Shown: positions 5 through 6,615, counted from the first letter of the stretch. The stretch is 6,615 nt of DNA from Candidatus Zixiibacteriota bacterium (GCA_030628225.1 DAOVRJ010000142.1:1-6615); one strand, 5' to 3'. Notes: generated from the sequence alone by a model not told the origin. A program made the numbers and translations.

Positions 5-32
5 TTTTCACTCTGCATTTTTCATTTTGCAT
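5..32 (+). repeat. Heptad array, TTTKCAT family (copy 1)
   Basis: Four 7-bp units in register: TTTTCAC, TCTGCAT, TTTTCAT, TTTGCAT. The same family recurs at 6488-6515 in this orientation and at 4876-4917 in the reverse orientation. The array may begin before the window. Confidence 0.75.
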
Positions 33-130
33 TGGGGGCCACATCAGAGGGTATACAGGTATCCCTTTTAATTGAGTCGTTCACTATTACTGAGAGTTCC
101 CGGCGGAAAGATCCCCCAGTGGCCCCAGGG

Positions 131-180
131 CACGTTGGCCGCAGCCAGGGGGAAACCTCCCCCTCCCAACCCAACCACCC
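131..180 (-). repeat. G-rich hairpin element, inverted copy
   Basis: Read on the minus strand, this 50-bp segment aligns without gaps to 6519-6568 on the plus strand, with 42 of 50 positions identical by hand count. Its core is GGTTGGGTTGG followed by a six-base-pair hairpin with arms AGGGGG and CCCCCT (147-152 and 159-164). The arms are identical in the two copies, while the six-base loop differs at two positions (AGGTTT here, AAGTGT in the other copy). I do not recognise the element from any named family. No transposase is nearby. Confidence 0.65.
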
Positions 181-183
181 TAC

Positions 184-225
184 CGAGCGTGGAACGCGGA
201 ACTCGGAACGCGGAACTGGGAGTTA
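184..225 (+). repeat. Heptad array, GGAACKC family
   Basis: Six 7-bp units: CGAGCGT, GGAACGC, GGAACTC, GGAACGC, GGAACTG, GGAGTTA. The four central units differ only at their last two positions. The unit is close to the reverse complement of the CTCCGCG family at 263-348, so the two arrays face each other as an imperfect inverted repeat. Confidence 0.8.
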
Positions 226-262
226 AAAGCTAAAATCAGAACAAAAGGGAAGTGGGGTTACA

Positions 263-348
263 CTCCCAGCTCCGAGCTCCGCACTCCGAGTTCCCAGCTC
301 CGCGCTCAAAAAGCTCCGCACTCCGCGCTCCCAGCTCCGCGCTCAAGA
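263..348 (+). repeat. Heptad array, CTCCGCG family (longest array)
   Basis: Twelve 7-bp units with a single two-base interruption after the seventh. Typical units are CTCCCAG, CTCCGAG, CTCCGCA, CTCCGCG and CTCAAGA. The first four positions are nearly constant and the last three vary. It lies between the GGAACKC array and the 9-bp array, just upstream of the peptidase promoter. Confidence 0.8.
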
Positions 349-366
349 AACTCTCCAAACTCTCTC
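349..366 (+). repeat. Short 9-bp array, AACTCTCNN family (copy 1)
   Basis: Two 9-bp units, AACTCTCCA and AACTCTCTC, followed by a degenerate AACAGGAAA. The same family forms a five-unit array at 5118-5162 in the same orientation. Two units alone would be weak evidence; the second array makes the family credible. Confidence 0.6.
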
Positions 367-399
367 AACAGGAAATTTTATCATCCACAAAAAAGTCTC

Positions 400-428
400 T
401 TGACAACAGCACCATTCTCTGGTAAAAT
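400..428 (+). promoter_or_regulatory. Sigma70-type promoter of the C25 peptidase gene
   Basis: A perfect -35 hexamer TTGACA (400-405) is followed by a 17-base spacer and a TAAAAT -10 hexamer (423-428, one mismatch to TATAAT). Transcription would start near 435, giving an untranslated leader of about 140 nt before the start codon at 575. It is the best promoter match I found in the window, correctly oriented, and placed just after the repeat arrays end. Start-site mapping would settle it. Confidence 0.75.
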
Positions 429-445
429 GGAAATAAGCGGAGGTT

Positions 446-548
446 CTTTTTCGGTGACAAATTCGTTCAATTAACATCGGTGGGAAAAAGGTGGACAGGC
501 TCATCCCCTGCCGGATTTCCTACGGGGGATAGGCACATCCTTTTTCTC
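446..548 (+). promoter_or_regulatory. Structured 5' leader with competing stems
   Basis: The segment GGGAAAAAGG (482-491) can form a 10-bp stem, including one G-U pair, with CCTTTTTCTC (539-548). The enclosed sequence adds a second stem, ATCCCC (503-508) with GGGGAT (525-530). The same middle segment can instead pair through GAAAAAG (484-490) with CTTTTTC at 446-452. These two pairings exclude each other, as in attenuators and riboswitches. I compared it from memory with common riboswitch classes (cobalamin, TPP, c-di-GMP, fluoride, molybdenum cofactor) and none fits. A regulatory role is inference; the pairing potential is seen directly. Confidence 0.4.
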
Positions 549-563
549 AGCAATCATCTCCAG

Positions 564-569
564 AGGAGG
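564..569 (+). promoter_or_regulatory. Ribosome binding site of the C25 peptidase gene
   Basis: AGGAGG lies five bases before the ATG at 575 and fixes that codon as the start in preference to the in-frame ATG at 599, which lacks a comparable site. The sequence CTCC (558-561) could pair with GGAG (565-568) across an AGA loop and partly mask the site; this small stem is weak on its own. Confidence 0.8.
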
Positions 570-574
570 GTTTA

Positions 575-3500
575 ATGGATCAGGTAGTCGTGAGAGCGAT
601 GAAAGGCCACGTTCTGCTGCTGGGTTTTCTCTGCCTGCTCATCTCCGGCACCGTCGCGGCCGAAACGATGACCTTTGGCGATAGCTGGGGTGAGCCGGGC
701 TTTCAACTGGTCTCCCAGAGGGATAGCGGCGTGGAGATCGTTTACTCCATGGGCTCGCTGAGCATCGAGGAGGTGGACATCGAGGGAGAGACCATGCAGA
801 TTTTAGCCATTCCGGGCGTCTTTTTGCCCAACGACGAGGGCGCGCCCAATCTACCCGGCACCGGCAGGTACATAGCTTTTCCCCAGGGGGCCACGGCAAG
901 ACTGGAGATCGTGGAGACCCGCAGCCAAACTCTGCGGGACATGAACATAGCCCCGGCGCCGCCCATACCCCGGGAGGATGACGACTCGCCGCTGGTATAC
1001 CGTAAGGATGCGGACATCTACGGTGCCGACACCTTTTATCCCCGGGAGCCCATAGCCCTGTCGCGGCCGCTGAAGATGCGCGGCGTGGACGCGGTCATCG
1101 TGGGCATCACCCCCTTTCAATACAATCCCGTGGCCAGGGAGCTGAAGGTATACACCGACGTGCGGCTCAGGATCACCTTTGAGGACGGCAATGGCCGCTT
1201 CGGCGAGGACCGCTACCGCAGTCGCTATTGGGAACCGGTGCTGCAGGCCCACCTGCTCAACTACGATTCCCTGTCGGAGGTGGATTTCAGCCATCGTCAG
1301 GGAACCAAGGGTACCGGCTGTGAGTACGTGATAATCGTGCCCGATGATGCCGATTTCATCGCCTGGGCCGATACCATCAAGCACTGGCGGACCCGGCAGG
1401 GCATCTCCACGGAGGTGTTCACCCTCAACGAGACGGGCTCATCGGCATCGGCCATCGAGAGCTGGATCAACAATACCTACAACACCTGGGACATACCGCC
1501 GGTGGCTGTCTTGCTGCTCTCCGATTATCCCGGCTCGGGGAAGGCCTACGGCATCACCTCGCCCATCTGGGACAGCTACTGCGTCTCGGACAACATCTAC
1601 GCCGATGTGGACGGGGACGATCTGCCGGAGATGAACTTCGCCAGGATCTGTGCCCGGGACGGTTCTGATCTGGAGCGGATGATCAACAAGTTCCTGAACT
1701 ACGAGCGCAGCCCCTATACCGACGCCGGTTTTTACGACCACCCGGTGTGTGCCGGGGGCTGGCAGTCCGACCGCTGGTTCATCCTCTGCTCGGAGGTCAT
1801 CTACGGGTTTTTGGCCAACGTGCACGGCAAGTCCCCTGTACGGGAGTACGCCATCTATTCCGGGACCCCGGGCAGCGTTTGGTCCACCAACCCAAACACA
1901 GGTATGATCGTGGACTACTTCGGGCCCAGCGGGCTGGGCTACATCCCGGCCACCCCGGAGCATCTCACCGACTGGGGAGCCAGCGCCACCCGGATGAACA
2001 ATGACATCAACTCCGGGTGCTTCATCGTCCAGCACCGGGATCACGGGGGCGAGACCGGATGGGGTGAGCCCGATTACGATAACGCTGACCTGGACAATTT
2101 AACCAACACCATGCTGCCCTTCGTTTTCTCCATCAACTGCCTCACCGGCATCTACAACTGGGGCAGCGAGTGCTTCGTGGAGAAGTTCCACCGCATCGAG
2201 CATGGCGCTCTGGGACTCATCGGGGCCAGCGAGAGCTCCTTTTCCTTTGTGAACGACACCTTTGTCTGGGGTATGTATGACTGCATGTGGCCGGAGTTCG
2301 ACCCGGGCTATCCTTCAGGAAAGAACACCGGGCCGGATGATCTGCGCCCCGGTTTCGCCAATGCATCGGGGAAATACTACCTGCAGGCCTCCAGTTGGCC
2401 TTACAACCCCGACTACAAGGACTACACCTACCACCTGTTTCACACTCATGGAGACGCCTTCACCACCCTGTACTCGGAGGTGCCGCAGAGCCTGACGGTG
2501 AGCTATCCAGGCGTACTGTACCTCGGGGCCATGTCCTTCCCGGTCACCGCCGACGAGGGCTCGGTCATCGCCCTGACCGTGGACGGGCAGATCATCGGCA
2601 CGGCCGACGGGACCGGCGGAACCGTCAGCGTGCCCATCACACCCCAGACCACCCCCGGTACCATGCTGGTCACCATCACCAAGTACAACTACTACCGCTA
2701 CGCCCAGTCGGTTCCGGTGCTGCCGCTGGAGGGACCCTTCGTGGTGCGCTACAAGCACGACGTGGACGACGATCTGTTAGGAGGCTCCAGCGGGAACGGG
2801 GACGGCGTCGTCAACCCGGGAGAGACCATCGAGCTTTTCCCCTTCTGGGTGATGAACTACGGGGTGGACACCGCCTTCACGGTCGGTGGCGCCCTCTATC
2901 TGGAGATCGCCGACCCATACGTGAGTCTCATCGATTCGCTGGACGACTACGGAACAATAGCCCCCGACGACTCGGCCCTGGGCGCCACCGGCTTTGTTTT
3001 CGAGGTGGACATGGGCGCTGCGGAAGGCCACAGGATCGATTTTCTGCTGAGCTGCACCGATGGCGACTCCGTCTGGAACTCATACTTCAGCGAGCTGGTG
3101 CGGGCCCCGGTCCTGGAATATGTCTCCAATGCGATCGACGACAGCGCAGGTGGCAACGGGGATGGCCGGATCGATCCCGGCGAGACGGTGGATCTGACCG
3201 TGACCATCGAGAACAGCGGAGGGGCAGGGGCCACGGGGATCGCCGGGACCCTGGTGTCTCTGAATCCATACGTGAGTGTTACCACCGCCCAGACCAGCTT
3301 CCCCGACCTGGATCCCGGAGATGAGATCGCCTCCCTGACCGATCTCACCATCTACCCGGATCCCCTTTGTCCGACGCCATCTCAGGCATCCCTGGAGCTC
3401 ACCTTGAGTGAGGCCAGAGGCTTCACCTTCGTGGATACCTTCACAGTTCGCATCGGCATGAAGCAGATCCTGTTTGTGGACGATGACGCCGGCGGTTCCT

Positions 3501-4810
3501 TTGAGACGTACTTCACCATCGCTCTTGACGCACTGGCTGTTGAGTATGATGTTTGCACAGGATCTGTTAGCCTGGAGGTCATGGAGGAGTACATCACCGT
3601 GATCTGGAACACAGGGGAGGATTATACCAGCACCCTCAATTCCTCTGACGAGGCCAACCTGATGGCCTACCTGGACGGCGGGGGCACCCTGTTTCTCTCC
3701 AGCCAGGACTACCTGTACGACATAGGTTCGCCCACCACCTTCTCGTCCAATTATCTGCACGTCTCCTCGTGGACCAACGACGTGGGTGTGGACGCCGTAG
3801 CGGGCACTCCCGGTGATCCTATCACCGACCGCCTGAGCTACACCCTCTCATATCCCCTTTACAACTGGTCCGACAGGATCGTTCCGCATGCCTCGGCGGC
3901 GCCGATCTTTGACATCACCGCCTCCAAGAGCAGCGAGCCGCTGCGGCCGCCGAAGGACGGAATTCCCCCGGATTTCGGAGATGCGCCGCCGCCCGGTCCC
4001 GGGAAGCAGACTTACTGTGCGCTTCGCTTTCCGGCAGAGGGAGACAGCGCTTACCAGGTGGTCTTCATGGCCATTCCCTTCGAATCCGTGCCCACGGCGG
4101 GAGATCGCCAGGAGCTGATGGAGAGGATCCTCGACTGGCTCCAGGGCGACAGAGACCCGCCGCTGGTTTCCGTGATCGTGCCCAACGGAGGAGAGGTCTG
4201 GGATGTGGGCAGCAAGCAGGATATCAGCTGGACGGCCACAGACCCATCGGGCATCAGCTCGATATCCCTGTATCTCTCTCTGGACGGGGGAGAGACCTTT
4301 GCGCACACCATCGCTCTGGGAGAGCATAACACACCGCCCTTTAGCTGGGTAGTCCCGCCCCTGCTCTCCGACAGCGCCGTGGTTAAAGCAGTCGCCTACG
4401 ACGCCCACTCGAACGAGGGTTGGAATGTGAGCGACAGCCTGTTCGCCATCGCCGATCTGAGTGCCCCCACGGATGTGCAGGATCTCTCGGTGGCCATTGA
4501 ATCCGGGGCCAAGTCCTTCAGCGGAGACATACGACTGTGGTGGAGCCCGGTTGAGGATAATGTGGGGGTGGATTATTACGTGGTCTATCGTGGTCTGGTG
4601 CCGATCCTTTTGGGCGACTCCATCGCCGCCCCGGCGGAGACCACCTACCTGGATGTGGGGGCAGTGGGCGACACTCTGGTGAATTACTACTACGTGGTCA
4701 AAGCCACCGATGCCGTGGGCCACAAATCCGGCGACTCCAACCATGTGGGCGAGTTCGATGTGCCCCTGACAAATATGGAGCCCCCCGAACCTCCCAAGAT
4801 CAGCCGGTAG
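575..4810 (+). CDS. Secreted gingipain-like (family C25) cysteine peptidase, multidomain
   Basis: This is a 1411-residue exported endopeptidase precursor. Residues 1-29 form a Sec signal peptide (hydrophobic 12-24, likely cleavage after VAA at 27-29). Residues 30-245 resemble the C25 propeptide, with LPGTGRYIAFPQGA at 93-106. The catalytic domain spans about 250-640. The likely dyad is His490 in HGGETGW and Cys522 in SINCLTG, 32 residues apart; in gingipain RgpB, His211 and Cys244 are 33 apart. SDNIYADVDGDDLPE (338-352) is a typical C25 segment before the active site. Two tandem beta-sandwich domains follow (about 722-842 and 845-960), each starting with an NGDG...PGET loop that probably binds calcium. 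Then come a glutamine-amidotransferase-like domain (about 963-1190, LFVDDD), an Ig-like domain (1194-1290, PNGGEVW) and a fibronectin III-like domain (1295-1390). The C-terminus ends in a short proline-rich tail with no recognisable type IX sorting domain, cell-wall anchor or membrane segment. Cleavage specificity cannot be read from the sequence. The peptidase family is secure; the boundaries of the later domains are approximate. Confidence 0.9.
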   Translation: MDQVVVRAMKGHVLLLGFLCLLISGTVAAETMTFGDSWGEPGFQLVSQRDSGVEIVYSMGSLSIEEVDIEGETMQILAIPGVFLPNDEGAPNLPGTGRYIAFPQGATARLEIVETRSQTLRDMNIAPAPPIPREDDDSPLVYRKDADIYGADTFYPREPIALSRPLKMRGVDAVIVGITPFQYNPVARELKVYTDVRLRITFEDGNGRFGEDRYRSRYWEPVLQAHLLNYDSLSEVDFSHRQGTKGTGCEYVIIVPDDADFIAWADTIKHWRTRQGISTEVFTLNETGSSASAIESWINNTYNTWDIPPVAVLLLSDYPGSGKAYGITSPIWDSYCVSDNIYADVDGDDLPEMNFARICARDGSDLERMINKFLNYERSPYTDAGFYDHPVCAGGWQSDRWFILCSEVIYGFLANVHGKSPVREYAIYSGTPGSVWSTNPNTGMIVDYFGPSGLGYIPATPEHLTDWGASATRMNNDINSGCFIVQHRDHGGETGWGEPDYDNADLDNLTNTMLPFVFSINCLTGIYNWGSECFVEKFHRIEHGALGLIGASESSFSFVNDTFVWGMYDCMWPEFDPGYPSGKNTGPDDLRPGFANASGKYYLQASSWPYNPDYKDYTYHLFHTHGDAFTTLYSEVPQSLTVSYPGVLYLGAMSFPVTADEGSVIALTVDGQIIGTADGTGGTVSVPITPQTTPGTMLVTITKYNYYRYAQSVPVLPLEGPFVVRYKHDVDDDLLGGSSGNGDGVVNPGETIELFPFWVMNYGVDTAFTVGGALYLEIADPYVSLIDSLDDYGTIAPDDSALGATGFVFEVDMGAAEGHRIDFLLSCTDGDSVWNSYFSELVRAPVLEYVSNAIDDSAGGNGDGRIDPGETVDLTVTIENSGGAGATGIAGTLVSLNPYVSVTTAQTSFPDLDPGDEIASLTDLTIYPDPLCPTPSQASLELTLSEARGFTFVDTFTVRIGMKQILFVDDDAGGSFETYFTIALDALAVEYDVCTGSVSLEVMEEYITVIWNTGEDYTSTLNSSDEANLMAYLDGGGTLFLSSQDYLYDIGSPTTFSSNYLHVSSWTNDVGVDAVAGTPGDPITDRLSYTLSYPLYNWSDRIVPHASAAPIFDITASKSSEPLRPPKDGIPPDFGDAPPPGPGKQTYCALRFPAEGDSAYQVVFMAIPFESVPTAGDRQELMERILDWLQGDRDPPLVSVIVPNGGEVWDVGSKQDISWTATDPSGISSISLYLSLDGGETFAHTIALGEHNTPPFSWVVPPLLSDSAVVKAVAYDAHSNEGWNVSDSLFAIADLSAPTDVQDLSVAIESGAKSFSGDIRLWWSPVEDNVGVDYYVVYRGLVPILLGDSIAAPAETTYLDVGAVGDTLVNYYYVVKATDAVGHKSGDSNHVGEFDVPLTNMEPPEPPKISR

Positions 4811-4834
4811 GAAGAGGGAAGATCGCATATAAGC

Positions 4835-4869
4835 AAAGTCGGCAGTAGGCAGTCGGCAGTAAGCAGTAA
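4835..4869 (+). repeat. Heptad array, GCAGTNN family
   Basis: A degenerate unit AAAGTCG is followed by GCAGTAG, GCAGTCG, GCAGTAA and GCAGTAA, five units in perfect 7-bp register. The first five positions are constant in the last four units. It starts 25 bp after the peptidase stop codon. Confidence 0.85.
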
Positions 4870-4875
4870 TTGAAA

Positions 4876-4917
4876 TGCAAGATGAAAAGTGCAAAGTGAA
4901 AAATGCAAAATGGAAAA
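4876..4917 (-). repeat. Heptad array, TTTKCAT family (copy 2, reverse orientation)
   Basis: Six units on the plus strand: TGCAAGA, TGAAAAG, TGCAAAG, TGAAAAA, TGCAAAA, TGGAAAA. C and A alternate at the third position. On the minus strand this is the same family as the arrays at 5-32 and 6488-6515. Confidence 0.85.
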
Positions 4918-4940
4918 AGCAGTTGAACTTTGCCTTTACG

Positions 4941-4968
4941 AATCCCGGATCCCGAACCCCGGTTCCCA
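4941..4968 (+). repeat. Heptad array, RATCCCG family
   Basis: Four units: AATCCCG, GATCCCG, AACCCCG, GTTCCCA. The last is degenerate. The unit resembles the reverse complement of the GGAACKC family at 184-225, so the two may share an origin. Confidence 0.7.
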
Positions 4969-4976
4969 GTAATTCC

Positions 4977-5004
4977 TCGAGTCTCCAGTCTCGAATCTCT
5001 AGTC
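4977..5004 (+). repeat. Heptad array, TCNAGTC family
   Basis: Four units: TCGAGTC, TCCAGTC, TCGAATC, TCTAGTC, then a partial TCGG. One further TCGAGTC plus TCGG occurs at 5044-5054. The family resembles the TCGAGAT array upstream of the mrp-type gene at 6436-6463. Confidence 0.8.
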
Positions 5005-5015
5005 TCGGCCTTTAA

Positions 5016-5029
5016 CCAGGATCCAGGAT
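5016..5029 (+). repeat. Heptad pair, CCAGGAT family (copy 1)
   Basis: Two identical CCAGGAT units, followed by CGG and a run of five T. The same unit forms a four-unit array at 5079-5106. Confidence 0.6.
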
Positions 5030-5078
5030 CGGTTTTTGTTTTCTCGAGTCTCGGTTTTTGCATTGTCTTTGACTCTAT

Positions 5079-5106
5079 CCAGCATCCAGGATCCAGTATC
5101 CAGGAT
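5079..5106 (+). repeat. Heptad array, CCAGGAT family (copy 2)
   Basis: Four units in register: CCAGCAT, CCAGGAT, CCAGTAT, CCAGGAT. Only the fifth position varies. Confidence 0.85.
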
Positions 5107-5117
5107 CTGCCTTTCCA

Positions 5118-5162
5118 GACTCGCTAAACTCCCTCAACTCGCCCAACTCTCTAAACTCTTTC
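5118..5162 (+). repeat. 9-bp array, AACTCNCNN family (copy 2), overlapping a stop codon
   Basis: Five 9-bp units: GACTCGCTA, AACTCCCTC, AACTCGCCC, AACTCTCTA, AACTCTTTC. The last unit runs two bases into the stop codon (5161-5163, minus strand) of the Mrp-type gene. The repeat therefore begins exactly where coding constraint ends. It belongs to the same family as 349-366. Confidence 0.8.
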
Positions 5163-6408
5163 AATGATCGCAGATGTTATCGCCTGTCTCCAGCGTGCCG
5201 TCCAGATACTTGCCGACCAGCTCATCGGGCGTTAGAGAGGGGGCACCGATGAGCACGTGGATGCCATGTTCCTCAAAGTGCCCCTGGGCCCGCTGGCCCA
5301 TCCCCCCGGCGATGATCATGTTGGCCCCCTGCTCATGGAGCCATTTGGGCAGAACCCCCGGCTCGTGCGCCGGTGGGTTGGCCAAGGTGGTCTGGACGAT
5401 CCGGCCATCGGCCACCTCCACCAGGGCGAATTGCTCACAGTGACCGAAATGCATGGCCAGCTTCCCCTGGGCCAGGGGTATGGCGATTTTTATCGTCGCA
5501 CCATCTCTTTTCTGCGAAACTTCTGCCTCGGGCTTGTTCGCAGAAAAGCTCTCTTTATTCTTCGGCTCGCCCATGCCGGCTAAAAGAGTCCGGATAACCC
5601 CTTCAAAGGCCCTGGCCGTTTCGGTTTCGGAATATTCCGAAACAAAGGGCACTCCCTTATCCGAAGCCTCTACCACCTGTGGATCCATGGGAATCATACC
5701 CAGAAAGGGCACATTCATCTCCATGGCCATCCGCTGACCGCCGCCCTTTTTGAAGACCTCGATCTCCTTGCCGCAGTGAGGACAGATCAGCCCGCTCATA
5801 TTCTCGATCACGCCCAGCACGGGCATCTTCACCTGGCGACAGAAGGTGATGGACTTGCGCACGTCGATGATCGATAGGTCCTGTGGACTGGTCACCACGA
5901 TGGCCCCATCCAGGTTGGGGATGAGCTGGGCCACCGAAAGGGGCTCGTCTCCCGTGCCCGGAGGGGAATCGATGATCAGGTAATCCAGCTCGCCCCACTC
6001 CACGTCCTTGAGAAACTGCTTGATGGCTCCCATCTTCAGAGGGCCCCGCCAGATAACCGCCATATCCTTATCCCTCAGCAGAAAACCCATGGACATCACC
6101 TTGATATTGGTGGCCACCTCGATGGGGTAGATAGTTTCCTGACCCATCCGGGGCACCTGATCCTCGATGCCCAACAGCTTGGGGATGCTGGGACCGTGAA
6201 TGTCGACGTCCAGCAGCCCCACCTGGTGCCCGTCCTGGGCCAGGGTGATGGCCAGATTTGCGGCCACGGTGCTCTTGCCCACGCCGCCCTTGCCGCTGAG
6301 CACCATGATCTTTTGCTTGATTTTACCCATTCTCTGATTCAGGGCCTCCTGGTCCAGCTCCTGCTGTTTCTTGAAATCCTGGGTTTGTTGATCAACCTTT
6401 GCGTTCAT
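5161..6408 (-). CDS. Mrp/NBP35-family iron-sulfur carrier ATPase fused to a NifX/NifB-like domain
   Basis: This 415-residue cytosolic protein probably binds and delivers [4Fe-4S] clusters to apo-enzymes using ATP. Residues 32-275 are the Mrp (ApbC) P-loop ATPase: deviant Walker A SGKGGVGKS at 38-46 with the extra lysine K40, DVDIHGPS at 67-74, and LIIDSPPGTGDE at 144-155. The family's CxxC that bridges a cluster between two subunits is Cys209 and Cys212. Residues 1-30 are polar, Gln-rich and probably helical. A charged linker (about 279-304) leads to a dinitrogenase iron-molybdenum cofactor domain (about 305-405, NifX/NifB C-terminal type) with HFGHCEQF at 320-327. The tail ends in NICDH, whose Cys413 and His415 could also bind metal. 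In the family such fusions occur in anaerobes without nitrogenase, so a role in nitrogen fixation should not be assumed. The ATG at 6408 is supported by AAAGGAG five bases upstream. The gene converges on the peptidase gene and has no visible operon partner here. The family is secure; the client protein is unknown. Confidence 0.93.
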   Translation of the reverse strand: MNAKVDQQTQDFKKQQELDQEALNQRMGKIKQKIMVLSGKGGVGKSTVAANLAITLAQDGHQVGLLDVDIHGPSIPKLLGIEDQVPRMGQETIYPIEVATNIKVMSMGFLLRDKDMAVIWRGPLKMGAIKQFLKDVEWGELDYLIIDSPPGTGDEPLSVAQLIPNLDGAIVVTSPQDLSIIDVRKSITFCRQVKMPVLGVIENMSGLICPHCGKEIEVFKKGGGQRMAMEMNVPFLGMIPMDPQVVEASDKGVPFVSEYSETETARAFEGVIRTLLAGMGEPKNKESFSANKPEAEVSQKRDGATIKIAIPLAQGKLAMHFGHCEQFALVEVADGRIVQTTLANPPAHEPGVLPKWLHEQGANMIIAGGMGQRAQGHFEEHGIHVLIGAPSLTPDELVGKYLDGTLETGDNICDH

Positions 6409-6413
6409 CGGTG

Positions 6414-6420
6414 CTCCTTT
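6414..6420 (-). promoter_or_regulatory. Ribosome binding site of the Mrp-type gene
   Basis: On the minus strand AAAGGAG lies five bases before the ATG at 6408 and supports that start. I could not identify a convincing -35/-10 pair between this site and the heptad arrays upstream, so the promoter may be weak, non-sigma70, or inside the arrays. Confidence 0.75.
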
Positions 6421-6435
6421 GTGAAAAACCGTTTA

Positions 6436-6463
6436 TCGAGATTCGAGATTCGAAATTCGAGAC
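6436..6463 (+). repeat. Heptad array, TCGAGAT family
   Basis: Four units: TCGAGAT, TCGAGAT, TCGAAAT, TCGAGAC, then a partial TCG. It starts only 28 bp upstream of the Mrp-type start codon, so any promoter for that gene must lie within or beyond it. Confidence 0.85.
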
Positions 6464-6487
6464 TCGTAAGGGCTTTGGAATCTTCAA

Positions 6488-6515
6488 TTTGCATTTTGCA
6501 TTTTTCATTTTTCAT
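6488..6515 (+). repeat. Heptad array, TTTKCAT family (copy 3)
   Basis: Four units: TTTGCAT, TTTGCAT, TTTTCAT, TTTTCAT. It lies directly before the G-rich hairpin element. Confidence 0.85.
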
Positions 6516-6518
6516 TTG

Positions 6519-6568
6519 GAGTGGTTGGGTTGGAAGGGGGAAGTGTCCCCCTCGCTTCAGCCAGCGTG
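6519..6568 (+). repeat. G-rich hairpin element, direct copy
   Basis: This is the partner of the inverted copy at 131-180 (42 of 50 identical, no gaps). It contains GGTTGGGTTGGAAGGGGG and a perfect six-base-pair hairpin, AGGGGG (6535-6540) with CCCCCT (6547-6552). The similarity fades as the element leads into the stronger hairpins at 6560-6615, which the other copy lacks in this form. Confidence 0.65.
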
Positions 6569-6615
6569 GCGCTGCGCGCCACCGGCTGGCTATCGGCGGT
6601 TGCACCGCCGATGCC
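6560..6615 (+). other. Two adjacent strong hairpins with identical TGC loops
   Basis: The first hairpin pairs GCCAGCGTGGCGC (6560-6572) with GCGCCAC (6576-6582) and GCTGGC (6585-6590), a 13-bp stem with a two-base CG bulge and a TGC loop. The second pairs ATCGGCGGT (6592-6600) with ACCGCCGAT (6604-6612), a perfect 9-bp stem also with a TGC loop; GGC (6588-6590) and GCC (6613-6615) could extend it past a one-base bulge. No T-run follows inside the window, so a terminator cannot be claimed. It may be part of a REP-like element or a structured RNA continuing beyond the edge. Confidence 0.6.

Follow-up and report, generated by a model that had tools for sequence, protein, structure and literature searches.

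Dispersed intergenic inverted repeats with heptad arms and a G-rich-first polarity in a Candidatus Zixiibacteriota genome

Introduction

The short tandemly repeated repetitive (STRR) sequences of heterocystous cyanobacteria are intergenic heptamer arrays with several units, described in one phylum. To our knowledge, no polarity of inverted pairs has been described for them. Here we analyse the heptad repeats in a 6,615-nucleotide stretch of DNA from Candidatus Zixiibacteriota bacterium (GCA_030628225.1 DAOVRJ010000142.1:1-6615), referred to at its whole length as the window. The evidence gives good support to the view that these repeats are the arms of dispersed, mosaic, intergenic inverted-repeat elements in which the G-rich arm comes first.

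In Xanthomonas and Nostoc, the heptads GGGAATC and GGGGA(T/C)T combine fixed and free positions (GGGANTN) and are dispersed between genes. There, 70-75 pairs stand in 'convergent orientation' with the G-strand first, divergent spacers are under-represented and the G-strand reads away from the adjacent open reading frame regardless of its direction (PMC4692102). Heptad repeats have so far been reported unit by unit and taxon by taxon, and were explained by quadruplexes, regulators or slippage. The original prediction for the window had counted at least eleven intergenic arrays with different units and a shared 7-bp period, and had suggested a single generating process instead of a single mobile element.

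Results

The window is the entire contig C293 of a draft genome (G000; 2.34-Mb, 306 contigs, 92% complete). Tandem Repeats Finder reported period 7 or 14 at 11 places (5-33, 191-221, 263-353, 4837-4868, 4873-4921, 4939-4967, 4976-5007, 5016-5030, 5077-5107, 6436-6466 and 6483-6517), the same number as had been counted before. With a strict lag-7 scan, 9 arrays were found (12 at a lower threshold), all within 1.13 kb of intergenic DNA in three stretches and none in the two genes; the mean over 1000 dinucleotide shuffles was 0.002. The lag-7 autocorrelation was 0.417 versus 0.252 for the shuffled sequence (z = 12.6). The observation of intergenic arrays with a 7-bp period was confirmed.

For the genome, genes were called with a simple self-trained caller. 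Densities and autocorrelation were taken from contigs C1-80, 11 of which are runs of N; 20 extra contigs, many picked for containing arrays, were used for anatomy and polarity and excluded from the densities. The intergenic DNA of the unbiased contigs C1-40 showed an autocorrelation peak at lag 7 (z = 16.8 over dinucleotide shuffles), and their coding DNA showed no lag-7 peak. Across contigs C1-80, lag-7 arrays numbered 88 in the intergenic DNA (70 kb) and 4 in the coding DNA (427 kb), compared with 0.1 in shuffles; the few coding arrays listed look like arrays within short, doubtful gene calls. The original prediction had named such an intergenic peak with many units across the genome as support, and neither of the two outcomes by which it would have been refuted, no excess in the rest of the genome or equal strength in shuffled sequence, was observed. 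At other lags, the intergenic DNA of C1-80 had 17 arrays at lag 9 and 0-2 each at 4, 5, 6, 8, 10, 11, 12 and 13. Period 7 is dominant, not exclusive. The above-chance 7-bp tandem units and their genome-wide dispersal outside genes agree with the class of intergenic heptameric arrays (STRR or long simple sequence repeats).

The arrays were then compared by polarity. All counts include related copies and are not counts of independent events. Among same-family inverted neighbours in the genome, the purine- or G-rich arm came first in 48 cases and the reversed order was found in 0. Pairs spaced 21-75 bp apart were G-first or reversed at 41:0 where both arms belonged to one family and at 17:4 where the families differed. 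In an inverted-repeat scan with non-heptad hairpins as a control, 27/27 heptad-armed inverted repeats of this genome were G-first. In other phyla, among the matches listed, 47 of the 48 untied heptad-armed repeats were G-first, whereas the non-heptad hairpins of the same DNA were split 81:67. In stretches picked without regard to arrays, both from relatives and from array-bearing genomes in other phyla, the count was 18/18. The polarity rule is credible because of the hairpin control and the diversity of the units. The G-rich-first inverted pairs that characterise the Xanthomonas-type convergent arrangement are present here.

The same polarity was seen in complete spacers, where 59 of 82 G-type arrays lay in the left half and 64 of 93 C-type arrays in the right half (P = 2e-10), independent of gene direction. 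Array density was 2.0 per kb in divergent and 6.2 per kb in convergent spacers. Since a G-first inverted repeat reads G-first on either strand, the polarity does not tell which strand acts. An AAAGC motif at the inner edge of the arms pointed inward in 24 and outward in 9 of 292 cases, which is suggestive only as the copies are related.

About 180 arrays in 743 kb were assigned by hand to roughly nine unit families: CGARTCT, AAARTGM, CCAGNAT, CCCTAAY, CTCCGMR, GGCAGTN, CCCGRAY, CTCTAAT and AAATTGC. In a typical heptad, one or two positions are free and the others mostly about 85-100% fixed, so that the two or three variable positions proposed before were too many. The eight unit sequences listed as different in the window do represent many units, but not eight families, and about six remain once both strands are read. 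GGAACKC (191) and CTCCGCG (263) belong to a single family read from opposite strands, TCNAGTC (4976) and TCGAGAT (6436) are a single family, and the AAATGCA array at 4873, which had been missed, has TTTKCAT (5, 6488) as its reverse complement. The arrays had been described as unrelated-looking sequences sharing only a period; the period is indeed shared by many units, but the pairing as inverted arms with fixed polarity had been overlooked. GGG occurs on the G-strand of families H and E only, and the quadruplex-capable G-tracts of the Xanthomonas type are missing from families A, B, C, D, F and K. Because most families are without GGG, quadruplexes cannot be the common cause.

Across the genome, an element consists of a heptad arm of 20-70 bp, a spacer of mostly 30-75 bp and an arm on the opposite strand. 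The spacers are conserved (88-100% identical) in both orientations: an H spacer recurs at 7 loci, an F spacer at 6 and others at 2-4. At L063, L086 and L071, a B element of 243-247 bp lies within the apex of a GC-rich hairpin, and at L080, L066, L089, L079, L082 and the window end the same hairpin is empty and has a short 13-bp tip. Blocks with identical irregular unit order recur at several loci. The filled and empty versions of one hairpin site, together with the repeated blocks, show that the intergenic DNA is a mosaic in which hairpin modules are repeated and nested in one another. The H-type arms (TTAGGGN/TTTAGGG; L080 4344-4488, L237 91-200, L053 2259-2425) resemble eukaryotic telomere repeats and are laid out like a head-to-head telomere fusion.

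The features of the window are listed in Table 1. Its positions 1-170, the right half of a B element, are 86-93% identical at 5 or more other loci, with 86-92% identity over 165-170 bp to L053, L085, L071, L063 and L086, and positions 4873-4999 are 93% identical to L082 9510-9636. The F element folds better than shuffles on the two strands (z -4.5 and -9.1). The mixed-arm region 4837-5107 does not (z 0.3). Arrays of the 9-bp unit also flank F elements in L079, L251 and L084, where they lie outside the heptad arms with the same polarity.

Table 1. Positions of genes and repeat features in the window
Feature	Position	Strand	Remarks
B-type element, right-hand part, truncated by contig start	1-132	-	C-strand arm TTTKCAY heptads 5-33, then conserved end ...ACAGTGGCCCCAGGGCA
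F-type G-rich arm, GGAACNC heptads	191-221	+	
F element conserved spacer, GTTAAAAGCTAAAATC...GTGGGGTTA	222-260	+	L069 copy at 95%
F-type C-rich arm, CTCCNNN heptads	261-344	+	opposite-strand match to family of 191-221
C25 peptidase, gingipain-like, secreted	575-4810		propeptide and C-terminal Ig-like domains; PF01364, PF08126, PF03785
A-type G-rich array GGCAGTN	4837-4869	+	
B-type purine array AAARTGM	4873-4921	+	
Mixed-arm element spacer	4922-4938	+	left arm B, right arm C
E-type C-rich array CCCGRAY	4939-4967	+	
C-type C-strand array CGARTCT	4976-5007	+	
D-type C-strand array CCAGNAT	5008-5030	+	
D-type C-strand array CCAGNAT	5077-5107	+	
9-bp array AACTCNCTN	5119-5158	+	absent from the original prediction
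P-loop ATPase, Mrp/NUBPL-type	5161-6408	-	C-terminal Nitro_FeMo-Co domain fused
C-type G-strand array CGAGATT	6436-6466	+	
B-type C-strand array TTTKCAT	6488-6517	+	
Nested GC-rich hairpin repeat GGGGGAAGTGTCCCCCTC..GCCAGCG/TGGCGCTGCGCGC/CACCGGCTGGC	6518-6615	+	apex is the site filled by a ~245-bp B element at other loci

The occurrence in other genomes was tested with the pattern GGCAGTNGGCAGTNGGCAGT. In 84,980 species genomes, at least 120 stretches matched, where about 7 are expected by chance over the whole collection, as estimated from its size. The matches listed came from Planctomycetota, Bacteroidota, Acidobacteriota, Cyanobacteria, Chloroflexota, Verrucomicrobiota, Omnitrophota, Alpha- and Gammaproteobacteria and others. 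Heptamer repeats had been associated with cyanobacteria, but many non-cyanobacterial phyla carry period-7 arrays. Around the matches listed, lag 7 was again the commonest period with other unit words, giving 180 further arrays versus 2-34 at lags other than multiples of 7. Period and polarity with differing units recur in Acidobacteriota, Chlorobi, Chloroflexi, Planctomycetota, Bacteroidota and others. The present genome is in draft contigs, and the nearest of the 4 genomes considered from its phylum belongs to another genus. G003 (same family) shares only part of its units with this genome and G001 (same phylum) has different ones, with an identical period. Taken together, the units change between genomes, and period and polarity persist. 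The suggestion of one process in place of one mobile element is therefore half right: the recurrence of period and polarity with other units in many phyla makes the process a general one, but the arrays in this genome ride on several dispersed families with conserved spacers.

Two side observations were made in these genomes. Long, nearly perfect arrays of TAGGCAG and TTGGCAG in L115, L129, L128, L151 (Mesorhizobium), L135 and L186 are likely recent expansions. L306 (Acidobacteriota, G005) has six inverted heptad pairs in 20 kb, several with a partly mirrored unit order.

Discussion

The repeats are best read as slippage-prone, mosaic, REPIN-like intergenic elements (REPIN, doublet of repetitive extragenic palindromic (REP) sequences forming hairpins) that represent a broader type, with many units, of the inverted GGGAATC heptads known from Xanthomonas and Nostoc (PMC4692102). 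For their origin, we propose that the arms are born by slippage, inverted by strand switching in which the G-rich nascent strand folds, spread by recombination or insertion and tolerated outside genes; we give this account a probability of about one half. The heptad arms would arise and vary in length through slippage during replication, for which steps of 7 nt seem to be favoured in many bacteria. Strand switching during replication could make the inverted layout, favoured when the displaced nascent strand is G-rich, as G-T and G-A mispairs would allow this strand to fold on itself and its C-rich complement could not. Later slippage may scramble the unit order of the arms, and recombination or insertion at hairpin tips may spread the elements and exchange their halves, leading to mosaic and mixed-arm forms. 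The elements would persist only where neither a gene nor a promoter is broken, and a host function would not be needed. The account draws on the dispersed copies with conserved spacers, the filled and empty sites, the polarity, the scarcity of arrays in divergent spacers and the lack of a dedicated enzyme common to array-bearing genomes. Signs of slippage were observed in other phyla, where among the matches listed adjacent units were identical in 49% versus 42% when permuted (z = 8.9), and in this genome, where units two apart were identical in 21% versus 15% when permuted (z = 3.1).

Several observations speak against this account. In this genome, adjacent units are identical in only 13%, unlike fresh slippage; with the excess at distance two, the arrays here are therefore older or grow by 14-bp steps. 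The unit order is not mirrored between the arms, here or elsewhere (mean rank 0.49 and 0.52), with few exceptions such as L209, so fold-back copying is not directly visible. Fold-back alone would not give the polarity between non-complementary families, which we ascribe to recombination, and its restriction to the G-rich nascent strand is a physical argument. As regards the terminal inverted repeats and target-site duplications of MITEs, filled and empty sites occur here, no target-site duplication, end motif or shared terminus was seen, and mixed-arm elements have no inverted ends.

A broader possibility, which we hold only tentatively, is a general bacterial process that forms, at the two edges of intergenic regions, strand-asymmetric arrays of short period with the G-rich strand inward. 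As period and polarity are constant across phyla and the unit word is freely replaced, the polarity would then reflect this process and not sequence, quadruplex or gene function.

It is unlikely that the elements are bidirectional hairpins selected at gene ends for terminating transcription, stabilising mRNA or binding regulators. Such roles would fit the richness of arrays in convergent and their scarcity in divergent spacers, as well as the placement of G-type arrays near the left and C-type arrays near the right spacer edge, which was also described for Xanthomonas (PMC4692102), and regulator sites were proposed for paired tandem sites in Geobacter (PMC2700814). However, the polarity ignores gene direction, and folding no better than that of shuffles was found for mixed-arm elements such as 4837-5107. 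No compensatory pairing between arms was found in a within-type comparison, the cross-family part being confounded by spacer types that are not all oriented alike. An Rfam search of 87 kb returned a single tRNA and no structured RNA over the elements. RNA-level structure was also rejected since sense and antisense fold energies and GU counts by spacer orientation showed no consistent direction, strand or GU bias.

Rather improbable is slippage alone, by which independent period-7 simple sequence repeats would pile up where they are harmless. The excess of period 7 found across many bacterial genomes (Mrazek and co-workers, cited in PMC4679880 and PMC4692102), the intergenic confinement and the homogenised adjacent units in other phyla are all in line with it. 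Slippage gives no inverted pairing, 48:0 polarity, conserved spacers or shared irregular unit order; as the whole story it is refuted by the conserved spacers and the polarity, and it is retained as a part of the proposed origin only.

We consider it quite improbable that the elements are true REPINs, non-autonomous mobile elements moved by a RAYT (REP-associated tyrosine transposase) or IS200-type Y1 transposase with the heptads as terminal repeats. The multi-copy inverted arms, the conserved spacer and the fixed polarity have a REPIN-like geometry, and the genome has 4 Y1_Tnp genes. Three of these are RAYT-like (L265, L269, L274), but each is flanked by its own unrelated palindrome family (GGGGACACATCCCATTTT; GTAGCGTCGCCTC; GGAGTGCGGCAGC) and none by heptads. 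The fourth belongs to an IS200-like element that has hairpin ends of its own (CCCCCGCTCGTGAGCGGGGG) and is inserted into a B-type heptad hairpin (L261 about 1325-1940, G000:C221). The arms share no GTAG/CGTC tag. In a survey of 13 genomes that are array-bearing or close kin, Y1_Tnp was present in 10 and absent from the array-bearing G005, G010 and G016; the draft state of the genomes limits the weight of such absences.

Very improbable is a telomere-like addition of heptads to both 3' ends of breaks that are then joined, which would predict G-first polarity, independent unit order of the arms, mixed-arm pairs and indifference to gene orientation, since a reverse transcriptase writer (RVT_1) is absent from G000 and 8 further genomes and present in 4/13, Ku for the joining is found in only 1/13, and the conserved spacers imply that most copies are duplicates and not fresh joins. 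The unknown repeat-writing process envisaged in the original prediction has gained no candidate enzyme: several array-bearing genomes lack RVT_1, several lack Y1/RAYT and several lack Ku, and within the limits of the drafts no dedicated writer is indicated.

About nine families follow one polarity rule and the same rule applies in distant phyla with non-quadruplex units, so the explanation must be common to all cases. The count of G-first versus C-first pairs is a measurable quantity that can be applied to thousands of genomes and to a polymerase assay.

Compared with the known systems, the elements are like STRR heptamers in being intergenic with several units, STRR having been described in one phylum. 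The direct repeats TAACTGA of marine Beggiatoaceae are also short intergenic heptamer arrays with a scattered phyletic distribution, but have one nearly invariant unit and are almost never inverted (PMC4679880). The hepta- and octanucleotide 'global regulator sites' of Geobacter metallireducens are short-unit arrays, mostly opposite-strand pairs, at tens of loci with variable spacing; unlike here, they were read as protein-binding sites with few units and no general rule (PMC2700814). REPINs and REP palindromes are likewise dispersed intergenic inverted pairs around a spacer, but their arms are single tagged palindromes tied to a RAYT gene instead of tandem heptads (PMC3116915, PMC3733652). 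With the Xanthomonas and Nostoc repeats, the elements share intergenic dispersed heptads, G-first pairs and their scarcity in divergent spacers. Each genome there has one quadruplex-forming unit, compared with about nine families here, most without GGG; the shared conserved spacers and the nested mosaic structure are features of the present elements, and a polarity across units and phyla is not known to be described there (PMC4692102). The phenomenon is therefore partly known already (PMC4692102, PMC4679880, PMC2700814). New, as far as open papers show, are the polarity over many units and many phyla with its hairpin control, the independence from quadruplex units and the conserved spacers.

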